A stretch of 64,000 nucleotides of DNA from Natronomonas halophila. GTDB lineage: Archaea; Halobacteriota; Halobacteria; Halobacteriales; Haloarculaceae. Below the pieces are notes generated by a model. The model was not told the DNA's origin, made no database searches, and saw only the letters and a list, made by a program, of their open reading frames with translations. The translations under genes and the position numbers were made by a program. This document shows positions 3,795 through 16,193 of the stretch, in pieces (within the stretch, counting starts at the first letter, position 1; every line of letters begins with the position of its first letter). The DNA is taken from NCBI RefSeq assembly GCF_013391085.1, contig NZ_CP058334.1, positions 744,001 to 808,000 on the forward strand. The letters run 5' to 3'.

Positions 3795-4790
3795 CTATTC
3801 GCGACGAGCGACCAACAGCCCGGCAGTCAGCAGGCCGACCAGCGCCGCGATACCACCGAATCCGGGGCCCTCGCCGGGCGTCGGCGTCATGTCTGCGACG
3901 GATTGGCCGGTATTACCGCCGCCGTTCTGCTCGTTACTATCGCCACCGGGGGCTTCAGTCGTCTCCGTCTCCGACGACCCACCGCTGCCGTCGTTCCCAC
4001 CGGCAGCAGACGTCGCTGTCACCGTGGGCGTCGATGTCGCGGTTGTCGTCGGTGTCGCCGTCGGCGTGGACTCGCGCGTCTCCGTCGCCGTGGCCGTCGG
4101 CGTTGGGGTCGGCGTCGATTCCGACGTAGAACTGTCGCCCTCCGCGGACGGCGGCGGGCCGAGTTCCGCGCGGGCTTCCTCTTCGTTTTCGAAGTCGCCG
4201 ACCCAGAAGTAGTGGGAGGTGAGGTGGACTTCCTCGTAGTTGCCCGCGTAGGTCGTCCCGTTCACGAAGCCGGAGAACTGATACCAGCCGGCCTCGCCCG
4301 TGTTCTCGACACAATCGCCCAGCACGGCGACCGTCGCGTCGGGCGCATAGAGGTTGATGGTATCGCCGCCGAAGTCGTCGGGGCCGTAGAGGTCGAGGGT
4401 GATACGCCGCTCGTTGACGTTGTAGGTCTTCATGTGCTGCAACAGGCTCTCGTCGACCTGTGTGCCCGTGTTGTTGTTCCCGCGGTCGATGCCGAACACG
4501 CGGGCGTCGTCGGGGGCACACGCGCTGAAGTCCGCCTGCTCGCTTTCGAGCCAGTAGTAGTCGACGATTTCGAGCCCCCGGTCGGCCTCGAAGGCGTCGG
4601 CGCCCGCCGAACTCATCACGTACGTCGCTTGCGTCGCGCTCGGACTCCTGTCAGCGTTTTCCTGTGGATACACCGTGAAGTTCGCCGGCGACCCGTGGGA
4701 TGCAGCCCCCACCGATGCGAACCCCGCCACCAACGCCGCCGCGAAGACGAGGGCGACGAAAACCGATAACCGAAGATGAAGCCGTGTCAT
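3795..4790 (-). CDS. PGF-CTERM surface protein with Thr-rich stalk
   Basis: 331-aa exported protein. A Sec signal peptide covers residues 1-30 and a folded domain about 31-205. A Ser/Thr/Pro-rich stalk (TPTPTPTATATE, TPTATPTTTATS) follows at about 210-270. The C-terminal sorting signal begins PGFGGIAALVGLL at residue 309, with a hydrophobic segment and terminal ARRE. PGF-CTERM proteins are processed by archaeosortase A and lipid-anchored, and two archaeosortase genes lie 5-9 kb away. The stalk is a likely O-glycosylation region. The function of the folded domain is unknown. Confidence 0.85.
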   Translation of the reverse strand: MTRLHLRLSVFVALVFAAALVAGFASVGAASHGSPANFTVYPQENADRSPSATQATYVMSSAGADAFEADRGLEIVDYYWLESEQADFSACAPDDARVFGIDRGNNNTGTQVDESLLQHMKTYNVNERRITLDLYGPDDFGGDTINLYAPDATVAVLGDCVENTGEAGWYQFSGFVNGTTYAGNYEEVHLTSHYFWVGDFENEEEARAELGPPPSAEGDSSTSESTPTPTPTATATETRESTPTATPTTTATSTPTVTATSAAGGNDGSGGSSETETTEAPGGDSNEQNGGGNTGQSVADMTPTPGEGPGFGGIAALVGLLTAGLLVARRE

Positions 4791-5192: not shown

Positions 5193-8051
5193 TCAAAGGC
5201 TGTCGTTCTGCTGGTACATCCGGGCACCAGCGATGGTAAGCACGAGCGCGAGGAGACCGACGAAGCCGAGCGCGGCCGTAATCGGCGAGTCGATTAGACC
5301 GGCACGTTCGCCGACCGGTTCGTCCTCTGTAGCAGTCGCCGTCTCGGTTTCGGTCTGTTCGGTCGAATCCTGCGCGTAGACCGCATACAGCGAGAAGCCG
5401 GGTACCTCGGATTCGTAGACGTATTCGCCGCCCTCACTACTGACGAGTTCGGGCTGGTGGACGTCCCAGCCGCCGTCGGTGTAGTGGCCGAGGCGGATGG
5501 ATTCGGGGCTGCCGCCGGCCGCTTCGAGTTGGGACTCGTCCAGCGTGAATTGGATGGTCGCCTGCTCGTCGGAGATGTTCTCCGGGACGGAGATCTCCAT
5601 CGCCATGAGCAGTTCACCGGGCGTCGCCGGGACGCCATCGGGGAGTTCGTCCATCTGCGCGATGGTCGCCTGTCCGCCAGCGCCCGCGACGAACGTGATG
5701 CTGTCGACGCTGACGTTCTCGAAGTCGACTTCGACGCCCTCCTGTCCGGGCGCAGTATCGGCTATCTGCTGGGCGTCGAACGCGACGGCGCCCGCGGGCG
5801 GTTCGACCTCGGACCCATTGGCCGGGTCCGTCGACGTCTCGTTCTGTGACGTGCCGTCGTCAGTCTCGGTGTTGTTTCCAGTGCTGGCATCATCACTACT
5901 GCCAGCACCAGACCCACCGCCGCCACCACCAGTACCGGCGCCGCCGCTGCCACCACTACCGCCGTTACCGGCACCGCCTTCATTGCCACTTCCGTCGCCG
6001 CTTCCGTCTTCACTGCCATCCTCACTACCGTCTTCGCTTCCGCCACCACTCTCATCGTCACTGCCGTCGCCGCTTCCATCACCGCTGCCATCCTCACTAC
6101 CGTCTTCGCTTCCGTTACCGTCGTTGCCACCGGGGATTTCCCCGACTGCCGCCACCGTCTCCGTCGACTGGATGACGGGCGCATCGCCCGCGTTCGTTTC
6201 GACGCTGAACGCTGCCGCGTCGCCGTCGGTGGCGCTGGTGGTATCGAACCGGATACCGTCTCCATCGGCGCTCTCGATGTGGATACTGTCACCGGCAGCG
6301 GTCGCCGAGGCGTTCTCGTCGACCGAAACCACGATGGCGTTCTCGGAGACCGACACCTCGGAGGCGTCCGACAGCGCACCGCTGACGGTCAGCGACTGTT
6401 TGGTGTCGAAGGCGATGCCGCCGTCACCCTCGAGACCGACCACGACGTCGCTTCCGGGTGCGATTTGGTGGCCTGTCGTGTCGTTGATACGGACGGCGAG
6501 CCCGTTGCTACCGGTCGTGCTGTTCACGCCGGAGTCCAGTTGAGTCGCGTCACCCTCGACGGTGATGTTCGGGGTTCCGACTGCCAATCCGTTGCTGGTC
6601 GTCACCTGTACCGGGTCGAAGGGTCCGTTGTCGACCGGCGTCGTGACGACATCGAGACCGCTCTCGAAGTCGGCCGCGTCCGCGTCGGTCGGCCCCTCGA
6701 AGCCCGACGTGTTGAACCGGACGTTCGAGAGGGTTACCACCTCGCTGTCGTTGATGTCCCTATCGACCGACACGAGAAGGTGGTTGGCCTCGATGGTCAC
6801 GGGCACCTCGGTGGCCGACAGGTCACCGTCGGATTCGATAGTTGCCGTGGTCTGGGCGGACGTATCGAAGGAGAGGGAATCGCGGTGCTGGGTCGGAATC
6901 GCGACGGTGAGGTTCTGGTCGGCGTCGTGAATCCCCGTCGTGAAGGAGTCCCGGCTGGAAATCTCGACGGTCGTCCCGTTCTCGGGAGCACCGTCGAGCC
7001 CGCGAGGGACTGCATAGTCGTCGGCAAATCGGGCGTCGACGCGGTCCGGCAGCAGTCCGTAGGTAGTGGTGTGGCCGTTGATTTCCCATGTAACCTCGCT
7101 CGCATTCGCGTCCGCGGGAACGTCGAAGGTCACCCCGTCAAGTTCGAGGATGGCAGTGTCGTTGCTGGAGCCGTCGAAGCGCGCCACCTTGACGCGGATT
7201 TCGGTCGCCGAGACGCCGTCGCTCGGGATGTACGCCTCGCCGCTGGGGGAACTGACGGTGATATCGCCGACGTTCCGGTCGTGGAAGTCGATAGGCTCCC
7301 CGTCGAGCGAGAGGGTCACTTCGAACTGGGAGGGCAGGTCGCCTTCGTCGCCGCGGAGCACGAGGTTCCGGGCTGGCTCGCTGGGCGTGCCCGTGGGCGC
7401 GCCGAACATCGTCTGGTTTTCCGCGCCCGCGGTGACCGCGGCGGAGAATCCACCGTTCTCGTCGGTCGCGGTCAGTTCGTGGTCGAACGGTTCGACGCGT
7501 AGTTCGTGGGTCGCGGTCTCGCCGTTGACGCTCCATCGGAGGGACCCGGTGTCGTCGCTACCGGGGTCGAACCGGAGGGTCCGGATTTCGACCGCGACGG
7601 GCGGCGAGGAGAGGACGGCGTCGCTGGTCACGTTGAACGCGACGCGGTCGGGGCCGACGTGGGTGACTTCGATGCCCTCGGTCCGGCTCGCGCGTTGCTC
7701 GTCGCCGTACTCTCCGATGACGACCAGTTCGATGTCCTCGGGACCCTGGTTGTCCGCGAACGCGATGTCACTGTCGGGAACTCGGAGTTCGCCCTGGAAC
7801 TCGGTCGGGAACGATTCGTTGGTCGCTTCGACCCGGAGGGTGTCGTCGTCGCTTTCGACACCGTCGGGGAGCTGGTCATCGAAACCGGCGATGAGCGTGG
7901 AGGCGTTTCCCCCACCCCCATCGCTCGCCGTCAGGCCGTGGTGCTCCGCTACCGCCGTTCCGGCGAAGGCGACGCCGCCCGCGAGAACGGACAGCGCCAC
8001 GAGGCCGGCGAGCAGGAGGGCGCGGAGTTCGTGAGTGTGTTCGTCGGTCAT
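5193..8051 (-). CDS. Large surface protein with PGF-pre-PGF domain and C-terminal membrane anchor
   Basis: 952 aa, starting MTDEHTHELRALLLAG with a Sec signal at residues 1-38. The N-terminal two thirds are acidic, beta-rich and repetitive. A Gly/Ser/Asp/Glu stalk covers about residues 637-724. A domain follows that ends in YVYESEVPGFSLYAVYA, the PGF-pre-PGF pattern. After a Thr/Glu spacer a transmembrane helix (SPITAALGFVGLLALVL) and short polar tail end the protein. There is no terminal PGF-CTERM motif before this helix, so a simple membrane anchor seems likelier than sortase processing. A cell-envelope role is inferred. Confidence 0.8.
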   Translation of the reverse strand: MTDEHTHELRALLLAGLVALSVLAGGVAFAGTAVAEHHGLTASDGGGGNASTLIAGFDDQLPDGVESDDDTLRVEATNESFPTEFQGELRVPDSDIAFADNQGPEDIELVVIGEYGDEQRASRTEGIEVTHVGPDRVAFNVTSDAVLSSPPVAVEIRTLRFDPGSDDTGSLRWSVNGETATHELRVEPFDHELTATDENGGFSAAVTAGAENQTMFGAPTGTPSEPARNLVLRGDEGDLPSQFEVTLSLDGEPIDFHDRNVGDITVSSPSGEAYIPSDGVSATEIRVKVARFDGSSNDTAILELDGVTFDVPADANASEVTWEINGHTTTYGLLPDRVDARFADDYAVPRGLDGAPENGTTVEISSRDSFTTGIHDADQNLTVAIPTQHRDSLSFDTSAQTTATIESDGDLSATEVPVTIEANHLLVSVDRDINDSEVVTLSNVRFNTSGFEGPTDADAADFESGLDVVTTPVDNGPFDPVQVTTSNGLAVGTPNITVEGDATQLDSGVNSTTGSNGLAVRINDTTGHQIAPGSDVVVGLEGDGGIAFDTKQSLTVSGALSDASEVSVSENAIVVSVDENASATAAGDSIHIESADGDGIRFDTTSATDGDAAAFSVETNAGDAPVIQSTETVAAVGEIPGGNDGNGSEDGSEDGSGDGSGDGSDDESGGGSEDGSEDGSEDGSGDGSGNEGGAGNGGSGGSGGAGTGGGGGGSGAGSSDDASTGNNTETDDGTSQNETSTDPANGSEVEPPAGAVAFDAQQIADTAPGQEGVEVDFENVSVDSITFVAGAGGQATIAQMDELPDGVPATPGELLMAMEISVPENISDEQATIQFTLDESQLEAAGGSPESIRLGHYTDGGWDVHQPELVSSEGGEYVYESEVPGFSLYAVYAQDSTEQTETETATATEDEPVGERAGLIDSPITAALGFVGLLALVLTIAGARMYQQNDSL

Positions 8052-8190
8052 GGTTCGGTTCGAGCCAGCCGATATGGCTCCGTCTTGGCTGGCACCACCC
8101 ACTATCAAACAAAAGGGGTTGTGACAAACGCGTCCAAACGACGGGCATAGCCGGGGGTTATTAACTACGTAAGAGAGGCCCGAACCCCCG

Positions 8191-10092: not shown

Positions 10093-11061
10093 TCAGTCGT
10101 CGTCCGCGCCGGCGGCCGCCGTCGCGTCATCGGCGTCGGGCAACAGCCCGAGTTCCGCCGCCGTATCGCGGTCCTCGCCGGTCACCATATACGCGATGTC
10201 GTCGATAATGACGAGCAGTTCGGGGAGTTCCCGGATGACGAACCACGCAATTCCGACCAGCGCAACCACCGATAGCGTCTGGCTGATGATGCCCTCCGCG
10301 ACGATGTGGGAGACCAGATAGGGGTCCGTCTCGCCGAACAGCGAGAGGAGATACGGCCCGTACCAGCCGTCGAACCACTGGTGGCCGAAGGCGAGGCCGA
10401 TGAACGTCGTTCGGATGATGTTGAGGACGTAGATGATCGGAATCGCGACCGCAAGCGCCCGGAACTTGCGGCGAAGCGGCGCCTTGACCGCGGCGATACA
10501 GCCGATGAAGATGGCCATGCTCCCGAGGGCGGTACAGGCCATCACGATGTTGTAGACGATGCCGGCGTGGTTCGGGTCCGGCGTCTCGAAAAAGAAGGCC
10601 GCCTCGAAACCGGCGTAGGCCGGTCGGCGCTCGGCGATGGGGCCGAGGTTCGGGTCGTAACCGAGCGCGTCCATCAGCAGGGCCGTCTGACTGGCGACGT
10701 GTTCGACGAGCAGTTGCCGGATGAACGGGAGCGTCTCGGCCGGCAAATAGACCAGCCCCATCACCGCAACTGCTCGACTCAGGACGAACAACGAGTCACG
10801 GCCGCTCGCAAGCAGGTAGCCCGCATAGAGACAGGCCGGGACGCCGACCAGCGCCAACAGCGCCTCGATGATGCTGTTGGAGACGAAGAAGAAATGCGGC
10901 GCCAAGAGAAGCCAAAAAACGGCGAAAAGCGCCCACGTCCCGCCGACGACGTAGCGTGACAGGTCCGGATAGCGTCGCTCGGCGAGGGCGCCACCGCCGA
11001 ACAGGGCCACGACGACCCACGCGAGCGGGTCCGTCACCGCCAGCACGTCGAACGGGAGCAT
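10093..11061 (-). CDS. artA: Archaeosortase A paralog 1 (ArtA1), third conserved Arg absent
   Basis: 322-aa polytopic membrane protein of the archaeosortase A family, which processes PGF-CTERM proteins. The catalytic Cys is C176 (NIVMACTALGSMAIF) and the first conserved Arg is R217 (LNIIRTTFIG). A third family residue is Arg in the sister protein (LADR, R260). In the aligned motif here it is VAEG, placing Gly at 257. The tail is rich in Asp and Ala. It lies 65 bp downstream of the Tat gene on the same strand, which suggests one transcript with artA2. It may be reduced in activity or have altered specificity. Confidence 0.85.
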   Translation of the reverse strand: MLPFDVLAVTDPLAWVVVALFGGGALAERRYPDLSRYVVGGTWALFAVFWLLLAPHFFFVSNSIIEALLALVGVPACLYAGYLLASGRDSLFVLSRAVAVMGLVYLPAETLPFIRQLLVEHVASQTALLMDALGYDPNLGPIAERRPAYAGFEAAFFFETPDPNHAGIVYNIVMACTALGSMAIFIGCIAAVKAPLRRKFRALAVAIPIIYVLNIIRTTFIGLAFGHQWFDGWYGPYLLSLFGETDPYLVSHIVAEGIISQTLSVVALVGIAWFVIRELPELLVIIDDIAYMVTGEDRDTAAELGLLPDADDATAAAGADDD

Positions 11062-11126
11062 CTATCCGAGCGAAGGAGTGGCCGCCTAAAGTCCTTGTCG
11101 GCCCGTGTGCTGACCGCACCGAACCG

Positions 11127-12143
11127 TCACCAGTAGACCGCGTCCGCCCGATGGTCCGCATCGTAGGCCTTGATTCCCTCGCCGCGCAGGCCGGTGATGT
11201 TGAGGTCATGGTACAGCGTCGAGTAGGTGTAATCGACGAACGTCATCGGCAATCGTAGCTCGCCGTCTTCCCGAATCGCCGTCAGGAGAGCGGTAAAGGC
11301 GTGTTTGTGTCGAGTGTCCCGAACGTAGCCGGCTGCCAGGGGAATCGTCTGGTTCCACGGCGCGATAGCCTGAAACCCCTCCATCGACCGATAGACGAGT
11401 TCCCAGCAGAACAGCCCCGTCGAATCGGCCTCCAGCAGCGACTCGAAATCGACGGGGTCCTCGAAGGCAGCCCGGAGGTCCGCCGCACCGAAGATGACGT
11501 TATCCTCGATCGATCCCGCAATATATCGCGGCACATCGTAATGGCCGTGCTCGCGAAAGCCCGCCATTAGCCCCTCGACCAGTGCCTGCGTCTCAGCGGG
11601 GTCCGTCCCGGTGAACGTCTCGACGATATCGGGGTCGACCGTCCGGTCGCGTCGCCGACGAACCGCAGCCACCATATCAGGCCGAGTTTCGGCGCCAGTC
11701 ACCCGCTCGAAGAACGCCGACGGTTGGCTGAACCCGAAGGTGTAGTTGCCGGCTTCGAAGTCCCGTGTGTCGACGAACAGTTCGGTCAGCCGACCGCCGA
11801 GCCCGTACCTCGAATCGAGGTCTTCGGCATCGCCTCGCGTCGCCGATTCGAAATCCAGCACGTACCGCTCGTCATCGGCGCGCAGTTCGACACCGTCATC
11901 GATCACACGGAGGCGAGCCGAACCGATATTCTCGCCGTAGACGGTCCGCATATTTGCCGAAACGGCGGCGGCGAGATCCTGTTTCTTGAGGTTCGTCCCC
12001 ATACCGAGTTCGCCGTAGCCCAGAATCGTGTTGTGGGCGGCTTTCGCCGCACCGACCGCGGTGAGCGCGCCACCCGCCCCCATGAGGAACTGCCGCCGTG
12101 AGATGTCCTCGAGGTCTTCCGGCAGCCGTGAGTCCTCGCTCAC
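11127..12143 (-). CDS. Tat-exported protein between two archaeosortases, transglutaminase-like Cys-His-Asp pattern
   Basis: 338 aa with GTG start overlapping the artA2 stop (GTGA), so translationally coupled. The twin-arginine signal ISRRQFLMGAGGALTAVG lies at residues 15-31. The mature part is not a family I can name. Residues 243-311 have a helix-start Cys (GLFCWELV, C246), a strand with His (AGYVRDTRHKHAF, H279/H281) and FVDYTYST with D304. Order and spacing resemble the Cys-His-Asp triad of transglutaminase-like enzymes. That reading is inference. The position suggests a partner of sortase-dependent surface proteins outside the membrane. Confidence 0.6.
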   Translation of the reverse strand: MSEDSRLPEDLEDISRRQFLMGAGGALTAVGAAKAAHNTILGYGELGMGTNLKKQDLAAAVSANMRTVYGENIGSARLRVIDDGVELRADDERYVLDFESATRGDAEDLDSRYGLGGRLTELFVDTRDFEAGNYTFGFSQPSAFFERVTGAETRPDMVAAVRRRRDRTVDPDIVETFTGTDPAETQALVEGLMAGFREHGHYDVPRYIAGSIEDNVIFGAADLRAAFEDPVDFESLLEADSTGLFCWELVYRSMEGFQAIAPWNQTIPLAAGYVRDTRHKHAFTALLTAIREDGELRLPMTFVDYTYSTLYHDLNITGLRGEGIKAYDADHRADAVYW

Positions 12144-13093
12144 GCCTCTCGGTCACCTCCGTCGGGTGCTGCTTCCGGACCCCGGAGCGACACCTCGTTG
12201 CCCGTCAGCAGGAAGAGCAGATCCTCCGCGATATCGAGGATTTCGGGCACCCAGCGGGCGACCAGCCACGCGATGCCGATGAGCGCGAACACCGCAAGCC
12301 CTTGGGAGAGCACCCGGTCAGCGAGGAAGAACGACACCAGCGCCGGGTCCTCCAACCCGAAGGCGAACATGATCGGGCCTTCCAGCCACGCCTGGTCGAA
12401 CCACTGGTAGCCGTTCGCCAGGGCGATGAAGGCGTTCCGTCCGATATTGAGTATCCAGATGATGGCGACCGCTACGACTGTCCCGATGGCTTTCCGGCGG
12501 ATCGGCGCCTTGACGGCCGCGATGAGGCCACCGAAAATCGCCATGCTCCCGATGCCCGTACACGCGAAGACGATACGCGACGCCCGGTCGGTCGCCGGGA
12601 AATAGAACGTATTCAAAAGCGACGTCTCCCCGGTGATGTCCTGGACGAGACGCACGCCCTCACCGTAACCAAGCGTATCGATGACCAGCATCGTCTGCCG
12701 GGCGACCGCTTCGATCAACACCCCACGCGCCAGCACCGACGTCTCGAAGGGCAGGTAGATGAGTCCCATGAAGGCGACCGCTCTGGACAGCACCAGCAGG
12801 GAGTCTCGGCCCTGATAGAGCAGCCAGCCGACGTACAGACAGCCCGGAACCGCGACGAGGACCAGCACCGACTGGACGATACTGCGGTGGACGAAGACGA
12901 AGTAGTGAATCAACAACAGCCAAAAGACCGCGAAGAGTCCCCACGCACCGACCGTCAGTCGACGGGCGATTTCACGGCGGTCCTGCCATTCGGCGAGGAC
13001 GCCAGCGAGAAACACCGCGACGACGACCCACGCAAGCACGTCGGTGATCGGAATGACCGACGTCTCCGCCATCGAAAGCGCAGGCAATCCCAT
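12140..13093 (-). CDS. artA: Archaeosortase A paralog 2 (ArtA2)
   Basis: 317-aa polytopic membrane transpeptidase-like enzyme for PGF-CTERM substrates. All three expected residues are present: C178 (IVFACTGIGSMAIF), R219 (LNIGRNAFIAL) and R260 (FFLADRVLSQ). A TATA element lies about 27 nt upstream of the ATG at 13093, which suits a leaderless mRNA. M8 (13072) aligns with the start of the paralog and is the alternative. It is first in a minus-strand run with the Tat protein and ArtA1. It is the better candidate for the housekeeping archaeosortase. Confidence 0.9.
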   Translation of the reverse strand: MGLPALSMAETSVIPITDVLAWVVVAVFLAGVLAEWQDRREIARRLTVGAWGLFAVFWLLLIHYFVFVHRSIVQSVLVLVAVPGCLYVGWLLYQGRDSLLVLSRAVAFMGLIYLPFETSVLARGVLIEAVARQTMLVIDTLGYGEGVRLVQDITGETSLLNTFYFPATDRASRIVFACTGIGSMAIFGGLIAAVKAPIRRKAIGTVVAVAIIWILNIGRNAFIALANGYQWFDQAWLEGPIMFAFGLEDPALVSFFLADRVLSQGLAVFALIGIAWLVARWVPEILDIAEDLLFLLTGNEVSLRGPEAAPDGGDREA

Positions 13094-13116: not shown

Positions 13117-13124
13117 GTATATGT
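13117..13124 (-). promoter_or_regulatory. TATA element for artA2
   Basis: ACATATAC on the minus strand, centred about 27 nt upstream of the ATG at 13093. That distance would place transcription start at the start codon, i.e. a leaderless mRNA. Confidence 0.45.
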
Positions 13125-13268: not shown

Positions 13269-16193
13269 TTAGAACGCGTTGCGACGGGCAGCCAGGAGCG
13301 CGGCACCGAGCAGCGCGATCAGGGCGAGGCCGGCACCGAAGCCGGGCTGGTCCTGGGACGTGGTCTCAGTGGCGGTTCCGGGCTCAGGCGTCGCAGTACC
13401 CTCGGACGGCGTCGCCGTCGGCGTCGCCTCGGTCTCGACAGTCAGCGTCGTGCTGGCGCTGTCGTCAGCGGAGGCGACCTCGACGGTGACGTCACCGGAG
13501 AGGTCGGACGTGCTGATAGTCGACTCGACGGTCGTCGACTCGTTGACGTCCAGACTGACTTCCTGACTGTCGACTTCCGTGTCGTCGACAAGGATCGAGA
13601 CAGTCTGGTTGCCTGCGACGTCACCATTGTTGGTGACATTTGCGGACACGTCAACGTCCTCGCCGGCCTCGACGGATGTCGAGCTTAGCGAGAGGTCGGA
13701 GACCTGGAAGGACGCGCCAGAGACTTCACCAACGACACCAGGCGTCTCGGCGTCATCCTCGAAGGACTGACGACGGATACTGGCGGTGAAGTTCTGACCC
13801 GAGTTGACGCCCGAGAAGTCGAACGTGGCAACGAAGTTGCCCTCGGCGTCAACGGTTGCGTCTGCGGTCTCGAGGAACGGGCTTTCGCCGGTTGCACGGG
13901 CGCGGACGGTCAGTTCCGTACCGGGTGCGACGGTCGTTTCGCCGGTGATTTCGGCTTCCTCAGTCGGCGAAACGCGGACCTCGCCACCACGTGTATCGAA
14001 CGAGGCCTCGCGGTCAACGAGAGTGTAGCTGCCGTTGGCAGATTCTGCCTCGGCACCGCTACGGACGAATTTCTTTTCGTACGCCTCGGTGACCGTGAAG
14101 TTGGCCGTGAACTCGTCGTTGATTTCCGCGTTCTGCTCGTCGACGAATTCGTCGGAGTCGACGATGACGTACAGCGTGTCGTTTTCGAGATCGCTAACGA
14201 CACGCGTGTTGGACGTGGCCATCGAAGTCGCATCACCAGTGGCGGCACCGGGGAGAGTCAGATTGATGGGGTCCGCGTTGATGCCAGCATCTTCCTGTTC
14301 GATGAAGAGGCTGACGTTCCCAGCATTCTGATGGGCTGCCAGGTCACTGATGGTATCGTAGGACCCTTCGAACCCGGAGACTTCAATCTCGTGGACAACG
14401 GTGTCACCGTTGAAGTTCAGACTGGAGTCACGGTCGGGATCCTTGACCGCAATGGTGTCGTCCTCGGTGAGACTCCCTTCGTTAGCAGCTTCGTTGATAT
14501 CCTCAACTTCAGTGAGCTGGTTGAACGAAGCGTAGGGAGCGGTGTGGACAGTAACGCTGGTGTCCTCACGCTGCTGGAGGTTGACAACAGCAACGTTGTA
14601 TTCTTCGGGGGTGTCAGCGTCACCGCTGTGCTGCTCTGCGATTACGTCGTAGAGCGCGTCGCCCAGGACGTAATTGAGGTCAGCTCTACTCTGGCTGAAG
14701 TTCGCAACGCTGCCTTCATCAACGCTGTAGAGCTTGCTCTCGTTGGTGGTCCGACCGAGCCAGTACGTGTTGATGTTGAGTACGACCTCATCATCATCGT
14801 TCGGCTGGACTTCGAAGCTCGCGTTGTAGTTCACGTCCTCGCCGCCGAACGTGAGATTGTACCGATCGAGTTCTTCGGACGTCGCGGAGATGGTGACGAT
14901 GTCACCGCGGTGTTCGTTGATCTGCGTCTCCTCGAATTCGACAGTTGCGTCGGCCGCTTGGCCGACGGAGACCGTAGCGTTAGCGGTCGCGGTCGTGTCA
15001 GTCGCTTCGAGATCAAGTGTGAACTCGTCGCCTTCCTCGATGTCGTATTCTTCGAGGAATGTGGCGTTGAGCGCAACCTCGCTATCGATACCGGTAATCT
15101 CGATTGTGTCGTCACCCACCGGCGTGGGGCTTTCCGAACTGAAGACGTCCTCAAGCTGATCCTGCGTGAGGTTGTCCGACGAGATGTTGAGGTTGTAGTT
15201 GTTACGGTTGGAGTCAACTTCAAGATCGATGGAATCGCCGAGTTCGACCGTGTCGTCGGCGAATTCGGCGCTCATGTCCTGAAGTGCGAATTCGACTTCG
15301 GGGCTGGCACTGGTGTTGTGAGCCGTGTCGATCACAGCACCGGTGTTATCAGTTATTACAGCTTCGCGCTGTGAACTGTTAGCCGAGTTCGCAGCGGTAA
15401 TGACGTAGTTGCCCTCGAAGTTGTCCGTCGAGATCACACGAGTGCGGGTGCTACTATCGACGCTAAATTCCGTCTCAAGGTCGCCAACGGCAGCACTAAA
15501 GGTCGACGCAGTGTCGTCCCATTCTCGAATCTGGAAATTCGAGAGATCCTGACCCGTGGTGGAGCTAGCATCAAAGACGAGCTCCTGACCCTGCCAGCGG
15601 GTCGTACCGGAGTCCCAGGACGCATCGGCGTTAGCTTCGTTCGCGGCTTCGGTTTCACCACGCGTGAGCGTTAGCGTGCCAGTATCCTGCGCACCGCCGG
15701 ATTGCGGATTGAACTGGATGACACCATCGTAGGTGTTGCTGGAATCACTCGGGTTCTGCCAACCGGAGCTCTGGATCGTGAGGGTTACAGTTTCTCCATC
15801 AGCCGGGTCGAAGGAATTATTGAGGCTGACAAAGAGGCTGTCACCACCGTTGCTCCGTTCAACGGAACTGACAGAACTCGAACTCGCGCTTCCACCGGAG
15901 GTGGAGAGGCTAACGTCGGAGCTGCTAATGTCCGACTTAAACCCGTTGTCAAAGTTACTGTCGCTACTGAAGTCGATACTCATCGAATCGACACTAGGTT
16001 CTCCGCCTTGTTCTGTTATCGATGCATCTAACTGAGCGTCGTCACCGGCTGTATCCGGTGATGGGCTGAATTGCGCTGCATTAGCTGTAGCAGCAGCACT
16101 CCCTGCGAACGCCATGGTTCCTGCGAAGACCCACAGGACCATCAGCGCTGCAAGGAATACCGCGCGCAGCTTGCTATTATTATTGTCTGTCAT
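13269..16193 (-). CDS. S-layer-like major surface glycoprotein with PGF-CTERM
   Basis: 974 aa. It starts MTDNNNSKLRAVFLAALMVL, a Sec signal cleaved near residue 36. The long acidic, beta-rich ectodomain has many N-x-S/T sequons (e.g. NESTT, NQTVS) for N-glycosylation. A CARDB/BGTF-like repeat follows at about 850-920. A Thr/Pro/Glu stalk (TPTATPSEGTATPEPGTATE) leads to the sorting signal PGFGAGLALIALLGAALLA, with PGF at residues 950-952. Length and layout match haloarchaeal S-layer glycoproteins processed by ArtA. Codon use is visibly more AT-rich than in its neighbours, perhaps reflecting horizontal exchange or rapid evolution. Confidence 0.85.
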   Translation of the reverse strand: MTDNNNSKLRAVFLAALMVLWVFAGTMAFAGSAAATANAAQFSPSPDTAGDDAQLDASITEQGGEPSVDSMSIDFSSDSNFDNGFKSDISSSDVSLSTSGGSASSSSVSSVERSNGGDSLFVSLNNSFDPADGETVTLTIQSSGWQNPSDSSNTYDGVIQFNPQSGGAQDTGTLTLTRGETEAANEANADASWDSGTTRWQGQELVFDASSTTGQDLSNFQIREWDDTASTFSAAVGDLETEFSVDSSTRTRVISTDNFEGNYVITAANSANSSQREAVITDNTGAVIDTAHNTSASPEVEFALQDMSAEFADDTVELGDSIDLEVDSNRNNYNLNISSDNLTQDQLEDVFSSESPTPVGDDTIEITGIDSEVALNATFLEEYDIEEGDEFTLDLEATDTTATANATVSVGQAADATVEFEETQINEHRGDIVTISATSEELDRYNLTFGGEDVNYNASFEVQPNDDDEVVLNINTYWLGRTTNESKLYSVDEGSVANFSQSRADLNYVLGDALYDVIAEQHSGDADTPEEYNVAVVNLQQREDTSVTVHTAPYASFNQLTEVEDINEAANEGSLTEDDTIAVKDPDRDSSLNFNGDTVVHEIEVSGFEGSYDTISDLAAHQNAGNVSLFIEQEDAGINADPINLTLPGAATGDATSMATSNTRVVSDLENDTLYVIVDSDEFVDEQNAEINDEFTANFTVTEAYEKKFVRSGAEAESANGSYTLVDREASFDTRGGEVRVSPTEEAEITGETTVAPGTELTVRARATGESPFLETADATVDAEGNFVATFDFSGVNSGQNFTASIRRQSFEDDAETPGVVGEVSGASFQVSDLSLSSTSVEAGEDVDVSANVTNNGDVAGNQTVSILVDDTEVDSQEVSLDVNESTTVESTISTSDLSGDVTVEVASADDSASTTLTVETEATPTATPSEGTATPEPGTATETTSQDQPGFGAGLALIALLGAALLAARRNAF

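Follow-up and report, generated by a model that had tools for sequence, protein, structure and literature searches.

Natronomonas halophila carries two archaeosortase A (ArtA) genes of different lineages, artUp and artDown, with a gene for an exported protein, TGL, between them. The residue in front of the (P/A)GF motif of sorting signals follows the ArtA lineage, which is a new finding. We think it probable, with moderate confidence, that two ArtA systems coexist here, artUp and TGL acting on the Gln/S-layer branch and artDown on the Gly class. The comparisons suggest that each ArtA serves its own class of surface proteins, tagged by a different short sequence. The locus bears on ArtA substrate recognition beyond "PGF" and on the other proteins in archaeal S-layer lipid anchoring. 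TGL, a nameless exported family tied by position to artA and pssD, is a concrete candidate for an S-layer anchoring factor. Natural genomes with two ArtAs and two signal classes make the specificity of ArtA testable by a one-residue swap.

In the window, which is the whole stretch of 64,000 nucleotides analysed, artUp, TGL and artDown lie head to tail in this order on the minus strand (Table 1). The stop codon of artUp overlaps TGL by the 4 bp GTGA, the GTG start of TGL being inside the overlap, and 65 bp separate TGL from artDown. This layout is exactly as given in the preliminary description of the DNA. The 4-bp overlap is kept across Natronomonas (also in L063-L065, L067, and L068), and translational coupling from artUp to TGL through it is likely. 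The block AAGGACTTTAGG ahead of artDown, which by eye resembles blocks in L063, L064, L069, and L070, is suggestive only of a promoter element. Because this promoter-like block is placed about 30 bases upstream in several relatives, artDown may be expressed separately. ATATAC ahead of artUp is, likewise, only suggestive of a TATA element.

Table 1. Features of the artUp-TGL-artDown locus and of neighbouring surface protein genes, in positions of the window
Feature	Positions	Strand	Basis or remark
artUp	12140..13093	-	archaeosortase A; TIGR04125 315.5 bits; tree; catalytic columns
TGL	11127..12143	-	Tat-signal protein, 338 aa; predicted transglutaminase-like fold
artDown	10093..11061	-	second archaeosortase A; TIGR04125 317.2 bits; own long branch
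GTGA overlap, artUp stop / TGL start	12140..12143	-	sequence and ORFs; overlap also in relatives
Possible promoter element AAGGACTTTAGG	11084..11095	-	about 30 nt 5' of artDown ATG; similar block in relatives
Possible TATA element (ATATAC)	13117..13122	-	ahead of artUp; sequence inspection
S-layer-type surface glycoprotein	13269..16193	-	DQPGFG-type PGF-CTERM signal (13278-13361); presumed artUp substrate
PGF-CTERM protein	3795..4790	-	GEGPGFG-type signal (3798-3881); presumed artDown substrate

Surface substrates had been proposed on both sides of the three genes. Upstream, the sequence agrees with this. The S-layer-type protein matches TIGR04126 (46.7 bits, cut-off 24.5), contains halo_sig_pep and a BGTF domain, and ends with a PGF motif, a hydrophobic stretch and a basic tail. 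It is S-layer-type by domains only, scoring 173 bits against the cut-off of 1100 bits for NF041335 (ArtA-dependent S-layer glycoprotein). Its signal is of the Gln class, as is the QPGFG ending of the S-layer protein encoded beside TGL in loci with the order S-layer-TGL-artA. Downstream, the proposal does not hold in the same way. The surface protein there (5193-8108, minus strand) has a PGF-pre-PGF domain and no PGF motif, and trm5 and the opposite-strand dph5 separate it from the trio. It was considered as a dedicated substrate of artDown and rejected, the C-terminal segments having no common motif. Homologues of this protein are seen downstream of the trio in the artDown-bearing loci L063, L064, L069, L070, and L096.

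TGL is seen in 44 of 292 Halobacteria genomes and in 12 of 392 genomes of a phylum sample. All 12 belong to the same order, and none was found outside that order among the 392. As 248 of the 292 genomes are without TGL, it is no general requirement. The positions of TGL, artA, and pssD were compared across genomes. TGL adjoins artA in 15 of the 44 carriers (seven Natronomonas, G131, G156, G159, and five of family f9) and pssD in 14 further carriers (families f3 and f7, with as many as about 550 bases between the two genes). The other 15 have TGL beside neither artA nor pssD. The pssD beside TGL is of the type NF038088, "protein sorting system archaetidylserine decarboxylase". By a rough estimate, chance adjacency to one of two given genes would occur in about one genome per thousand. 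The gene order takes at least three arrangements, among them artA-TGL, TGL-artA, TGL-artA-artA, and pssD-TGL. The association of TGL with anchoring genes therefore arose more than once. The linkage to artA and pssD supports the placement of TGL in the anchoring pathway, as an accessory member. These facts agree with the earlier proposal that the central gene is a functional partner of ArtA. The opposite case, that the family is usually found far from ArtA, is true in that TGL is not adjacent to artA in 29 of the 44 carriers, but 14 of those 29 have it beside pssD, in the same pathway.

The TGL genes of Natronomonas and f9 form one clade (support 99). Their adjacent artA genes also make up a single clade (support 99), which would fit a cassette of artA and TGL that has moved as a unit. 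Linkage of TGL with two ArtA copies is conserved only in part of Natronomonas and relatives; the other carriers have a single ArtA. TGL is also found alongside ArtA lineages other than the artUp type. The rule that an artUp-type ArtA is present if and only if TGL is present was rejected; G195, G201, and G229 have artUp-type ArtA and do without TGL, so TGL is not obligatory for the artUp branch.

Several neighbourhoods deserve mention by themselves. A gene for an HTTM-domain membrane protein follows TGL in Haladaptatus and is located between TGL and artA in Halorarius (L074, L078, and L084); this protein is possibly a further member of the pathway. In some Natrialbaceae (L077, L085, and L089), TGL comes after a Tat-signal gene with an HExxH-like motif, and artA and pssD are not nearby. 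The TGL copies in L087, L088, L096, and G216 look truncated, fused or interrupted, and are possibly assembly errors or pseudogenes. Genes artA, pssA, and pssD were reported to be unclustered in Haloferax and more than 70 haloarchaeal genomes (PMC7157517). In G286 (G286:C6:11351-12819), pssD adjoins artA, unlike their usual separation in the class.

Apart from the Tat signal, searches of Pfam, NCBIfam, and PDB sequences gave no family name for TGL, and no Pfam match was found among 30 members. The twin arginine is invariant in 30 of 30, a hydrophobic stretch is present, and matches to the TAT model are weak. Four residues are invariant in 48 TGL relatives: C246 (11406-11408), H279, H281 (11301-11303), and D304 (11232-11234). 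Cys, His, and Asp come in the order expected for a catalytic triad. The structure models of TGL have mean pLDDT of 88.5 (mature protein) and 79.9 (the other model). VIA-align was run on Foldseek candidates, and ranked TglA (Z 8.1; 131 residues, 3.5 Å), PeiP (7.2), TGase (6.9), PeiW (6.8), and LapG (6.5) for the mature model. Transglutaminase 3, arylamine N-acetyltransferases, and vasohibins also ranked high; nearly all of these belong to the transglutaminase-like superfamily, and a Z near 8 can reflect a shared arrangement only. Foldseek itself gave no significant structural match for either model, and hhalign of TGL against haloarchaeal Transglut_core proteins was negative (probability 0.6%).

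The region of TGL that resembles the transglutaminase-like fold is residues ~160-338, and the N-terminal part shows a weak match to FERM-like subdomains. TGL resembles TglA, PeiW/PeiP, LapG, and vasohibin in this predicted fold, and has the Cys-His-Asp order in common with them. Unlike them, it has a Tat signal, an extra N-terminal domain and linkage to archaeosortase genes; from Pfam Transglut_core it differs in that sequence similarity is not detectable. By predicted fold and conserved residues, TGL thus resembles the superfamily and is not a proven member. C246, H281, and D304 are a probable catalytic triad, and TGL is probably a thiol-based enzyme. Archaeosortase and transglutaminase were not found together in any of the papers searched.

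TGL would most likely work on the outer side of the membrane as a thiol acyltransferase or a protease, with the ArtA-processed proteins or their anchor as its target. As a protease, it might release or trim anchored surface proteins as LapG does, and its role would be in S-layer turnover rather than attachment. LapG stands close to the top of the structural ranking, as do two endoisopeptidases of archaeal viruses, PeiP and PeiW, and the accessory spread of TGL suits regulation. However, a position beside pssD, a gene of lipid synthesis, is explained no less well by attachment, and we regard this possibility as somewhat unlikely. TGL could instead catalyze acyl transfer in or after anchoring, either by aiding transfer of the cleaved protein to an amine lipid or by cross-linking S-layer subunits. 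This would suit the predicted fold, the linkage both to the cleaving enzyme and to the gene through which the presumed amine acceptor is made, and the prevalence of Gln in the signals of the linked S-layer proteins. On the other hand, most haloarchaea, Haloferax included, anchor without TGL. Besides, in many TGL carriers of other families the place of Gln is taken by Leu, Ile, Met, Ser, and Val. Gln thus cannot be a fixed acceptor, and we consider acyl transfer unlikely. A further possibility is that the exported TGL catalyzes nothing, is papain-like in fold only, and helps the S-layer protein or ArtA as an assembly factor or chaperone. Its unusual extra invariant residues (R206, Y207, N215, R278, H279, and W338), a conserved segment directly after the signal peptide and the lack of any detected sequence relation to known enzymes are in line with such a role. 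The residues in triad order are, however, invariant in 48 of 48 TGL sequences, which makes an inert TGL quite doubtful.

Both flanking genes match TIGR04125 well above its curated cut-off of 75 bits. They are the sole exosortase/archaeosortase matches in the 3.2-Mb genome, and are 48-49% identical to each other. ArtA is present in all 292 sampled Halobacteria, 280 of which have one match, so a single ArtA is indeed usual, as the preliminary description stated. More than one match is seen in 12 genomes. Four of them plainly have two intact copies (Natronomonas halophila, G252, G156, and G135), G159 has at least two ArtAs, and the other multi-match genomes contain diverged or partial extras. A tree built from 166 ArtA sequences places artUp with those of Halococcaceae and Halalkalicoccaceae (support 99). 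The artDown type consists of seven sequences on their own long branch (support 100). The long branch joins Haloferacaceae-like ArtA (support 88) and not the Haloarculaceae-type copies.

Cys173, Arg214, and Arg253 of Haloferax ArtA were named critical (PMC9263693). The Haloferax numbering could be followed through several ArtA sequences in the set, which place Cys, Arg, and Arg exactly at 173, 214, and 253. The equivalents in artUp are C178, R219, and R260. In artDown, C176 and R217 are kept, the position of Arg253 is G257, and H252 is located five residues upstream. The Cys173 and Arg214 equivalents are present in 166 of 166 sequences, including artUp and artDown. The Arg253 column is variable across the family: R 101, N 39, K 8, S 6, H 6, and G 5. 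The artDown copies contain G or S at this position, and the His five residues earlier is unique to them. Judged from sequences, the two ArtAs differ in lineage, in the third catalytic residue and apparently in substrate class, points that the preliminary description missed.

The residue before (P/A)GF was scored in 27 genomes, which were chosen and not random. Substrates were gathered by family search and retrieval of genome regions, and signals were collected by pattern. In the seven genomes with only Haloarculaceae-type ArtA, 40 of 41 signals have Gly at this site. In the nine with only artUp-type ArtA, 47 of 49 have another residue, mostly Gln. The four two-ArtA genomes contain a mixture, 34 Gly and 8 Gln. 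Within Natronomonas, Gly is seen in 2 of 29 signals where there is one ArtA versus 22 of 27 where there are two. Of the two exceptions, at least the one in G099, an arginine-rich sequence, looks like a spurious frame. Fisher p values for these contrasts are about 6e-22 and 1e-8; they are inflated by paralogues and related genomes, and are given as scale only because the signals are not independent. G014, the only sampled genome with Haloferacaceae-like ArtA, has T, I or S before PGF, not Gly, and this counts against the reading of two sortase-signal pairs. PGF-CTERM proteins number 17 and 13 in two two-ArtA Natronomonas, versus 4 to 7 in five one-ArtA Natronomonas. The Gly signals of the two-ArtA Natronomonas belong to six protein families unlinked by BLASTP, one of them with 12 members; the Gly class is therefore not one expanded family.

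In Haloferax, ArtA-dependent maturation requires PssD (PMC7157517). Following the Haloferax model, ArtA would cut the signal and attach the protein to an archaeal lipid with an amine group, which PssA and PssD supply. In the reading that we favour, artUp and the coupled exported TGL would serve proteins in which the PGF core is preceded by Gln or by some other side chain, and their main client would be the S-layer glycoprotein encoded next door. artDown would serve a separate, expanded set of surface proteins with the signal GxG(P/A)GFG, a pairing suggested by co-occurrence. The Natronomonas system has in common with the ArtA-PssA-PssD system of Haloferax volcanii the ArtA family, PGF-CTERM signals, an S-layer substrate, PssD, and the catalytic Cys and Arg. 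It differs in having two ArtA lineages, two signal classes and the added exported TGL. As in dedicated sortase-substrate pairs, where several exosortases or sortases with their own signals are present in one genome, each enzyme is apparently matched to a signal variant. Unlike in those pairs, the two enzymes here are members of a single family, ArtA, and it is mainly a single residue ahead of the PGF core that sets their signals apart. A bolder version, which we consider rather unlikely, is that archaeal lipid anchoring employs TGL as a second thiol enzyme, which works on the S-layer signal of the Gln class together with ArtA or following it (for instance, in transfer to archaetidylethanolamine or anchor remodelling), and that two orthogonal ArtA-signal pairs, evolved in haloarchaea, can work side by side in one cell.

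That artDown is a redundant or decaying copy, and the signal classes are lineage-specific protein families and not a matter of sortase specificity, could be read from the loss of the Arg253 equivalent and from the absence of artDown (lost or never gained) in several Natronomonas, but is quite unlikely given the Cys and Arg retained in all copies, the new His conserved in 6 of 6 copies with data, the maintenance of the branch in seven genomes, and the six families covered by the Gly class in the genomes holding it.

A paralogous PGF-CTERM family, to which the protein at 3795-4790 of the window belongs, is expanded in two-ArtA Natronomonas (also L128, which is G000:C1:1512500-1520000, and L137). 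Two genomes together yielded 12 members, five of which stand in a tandem array.
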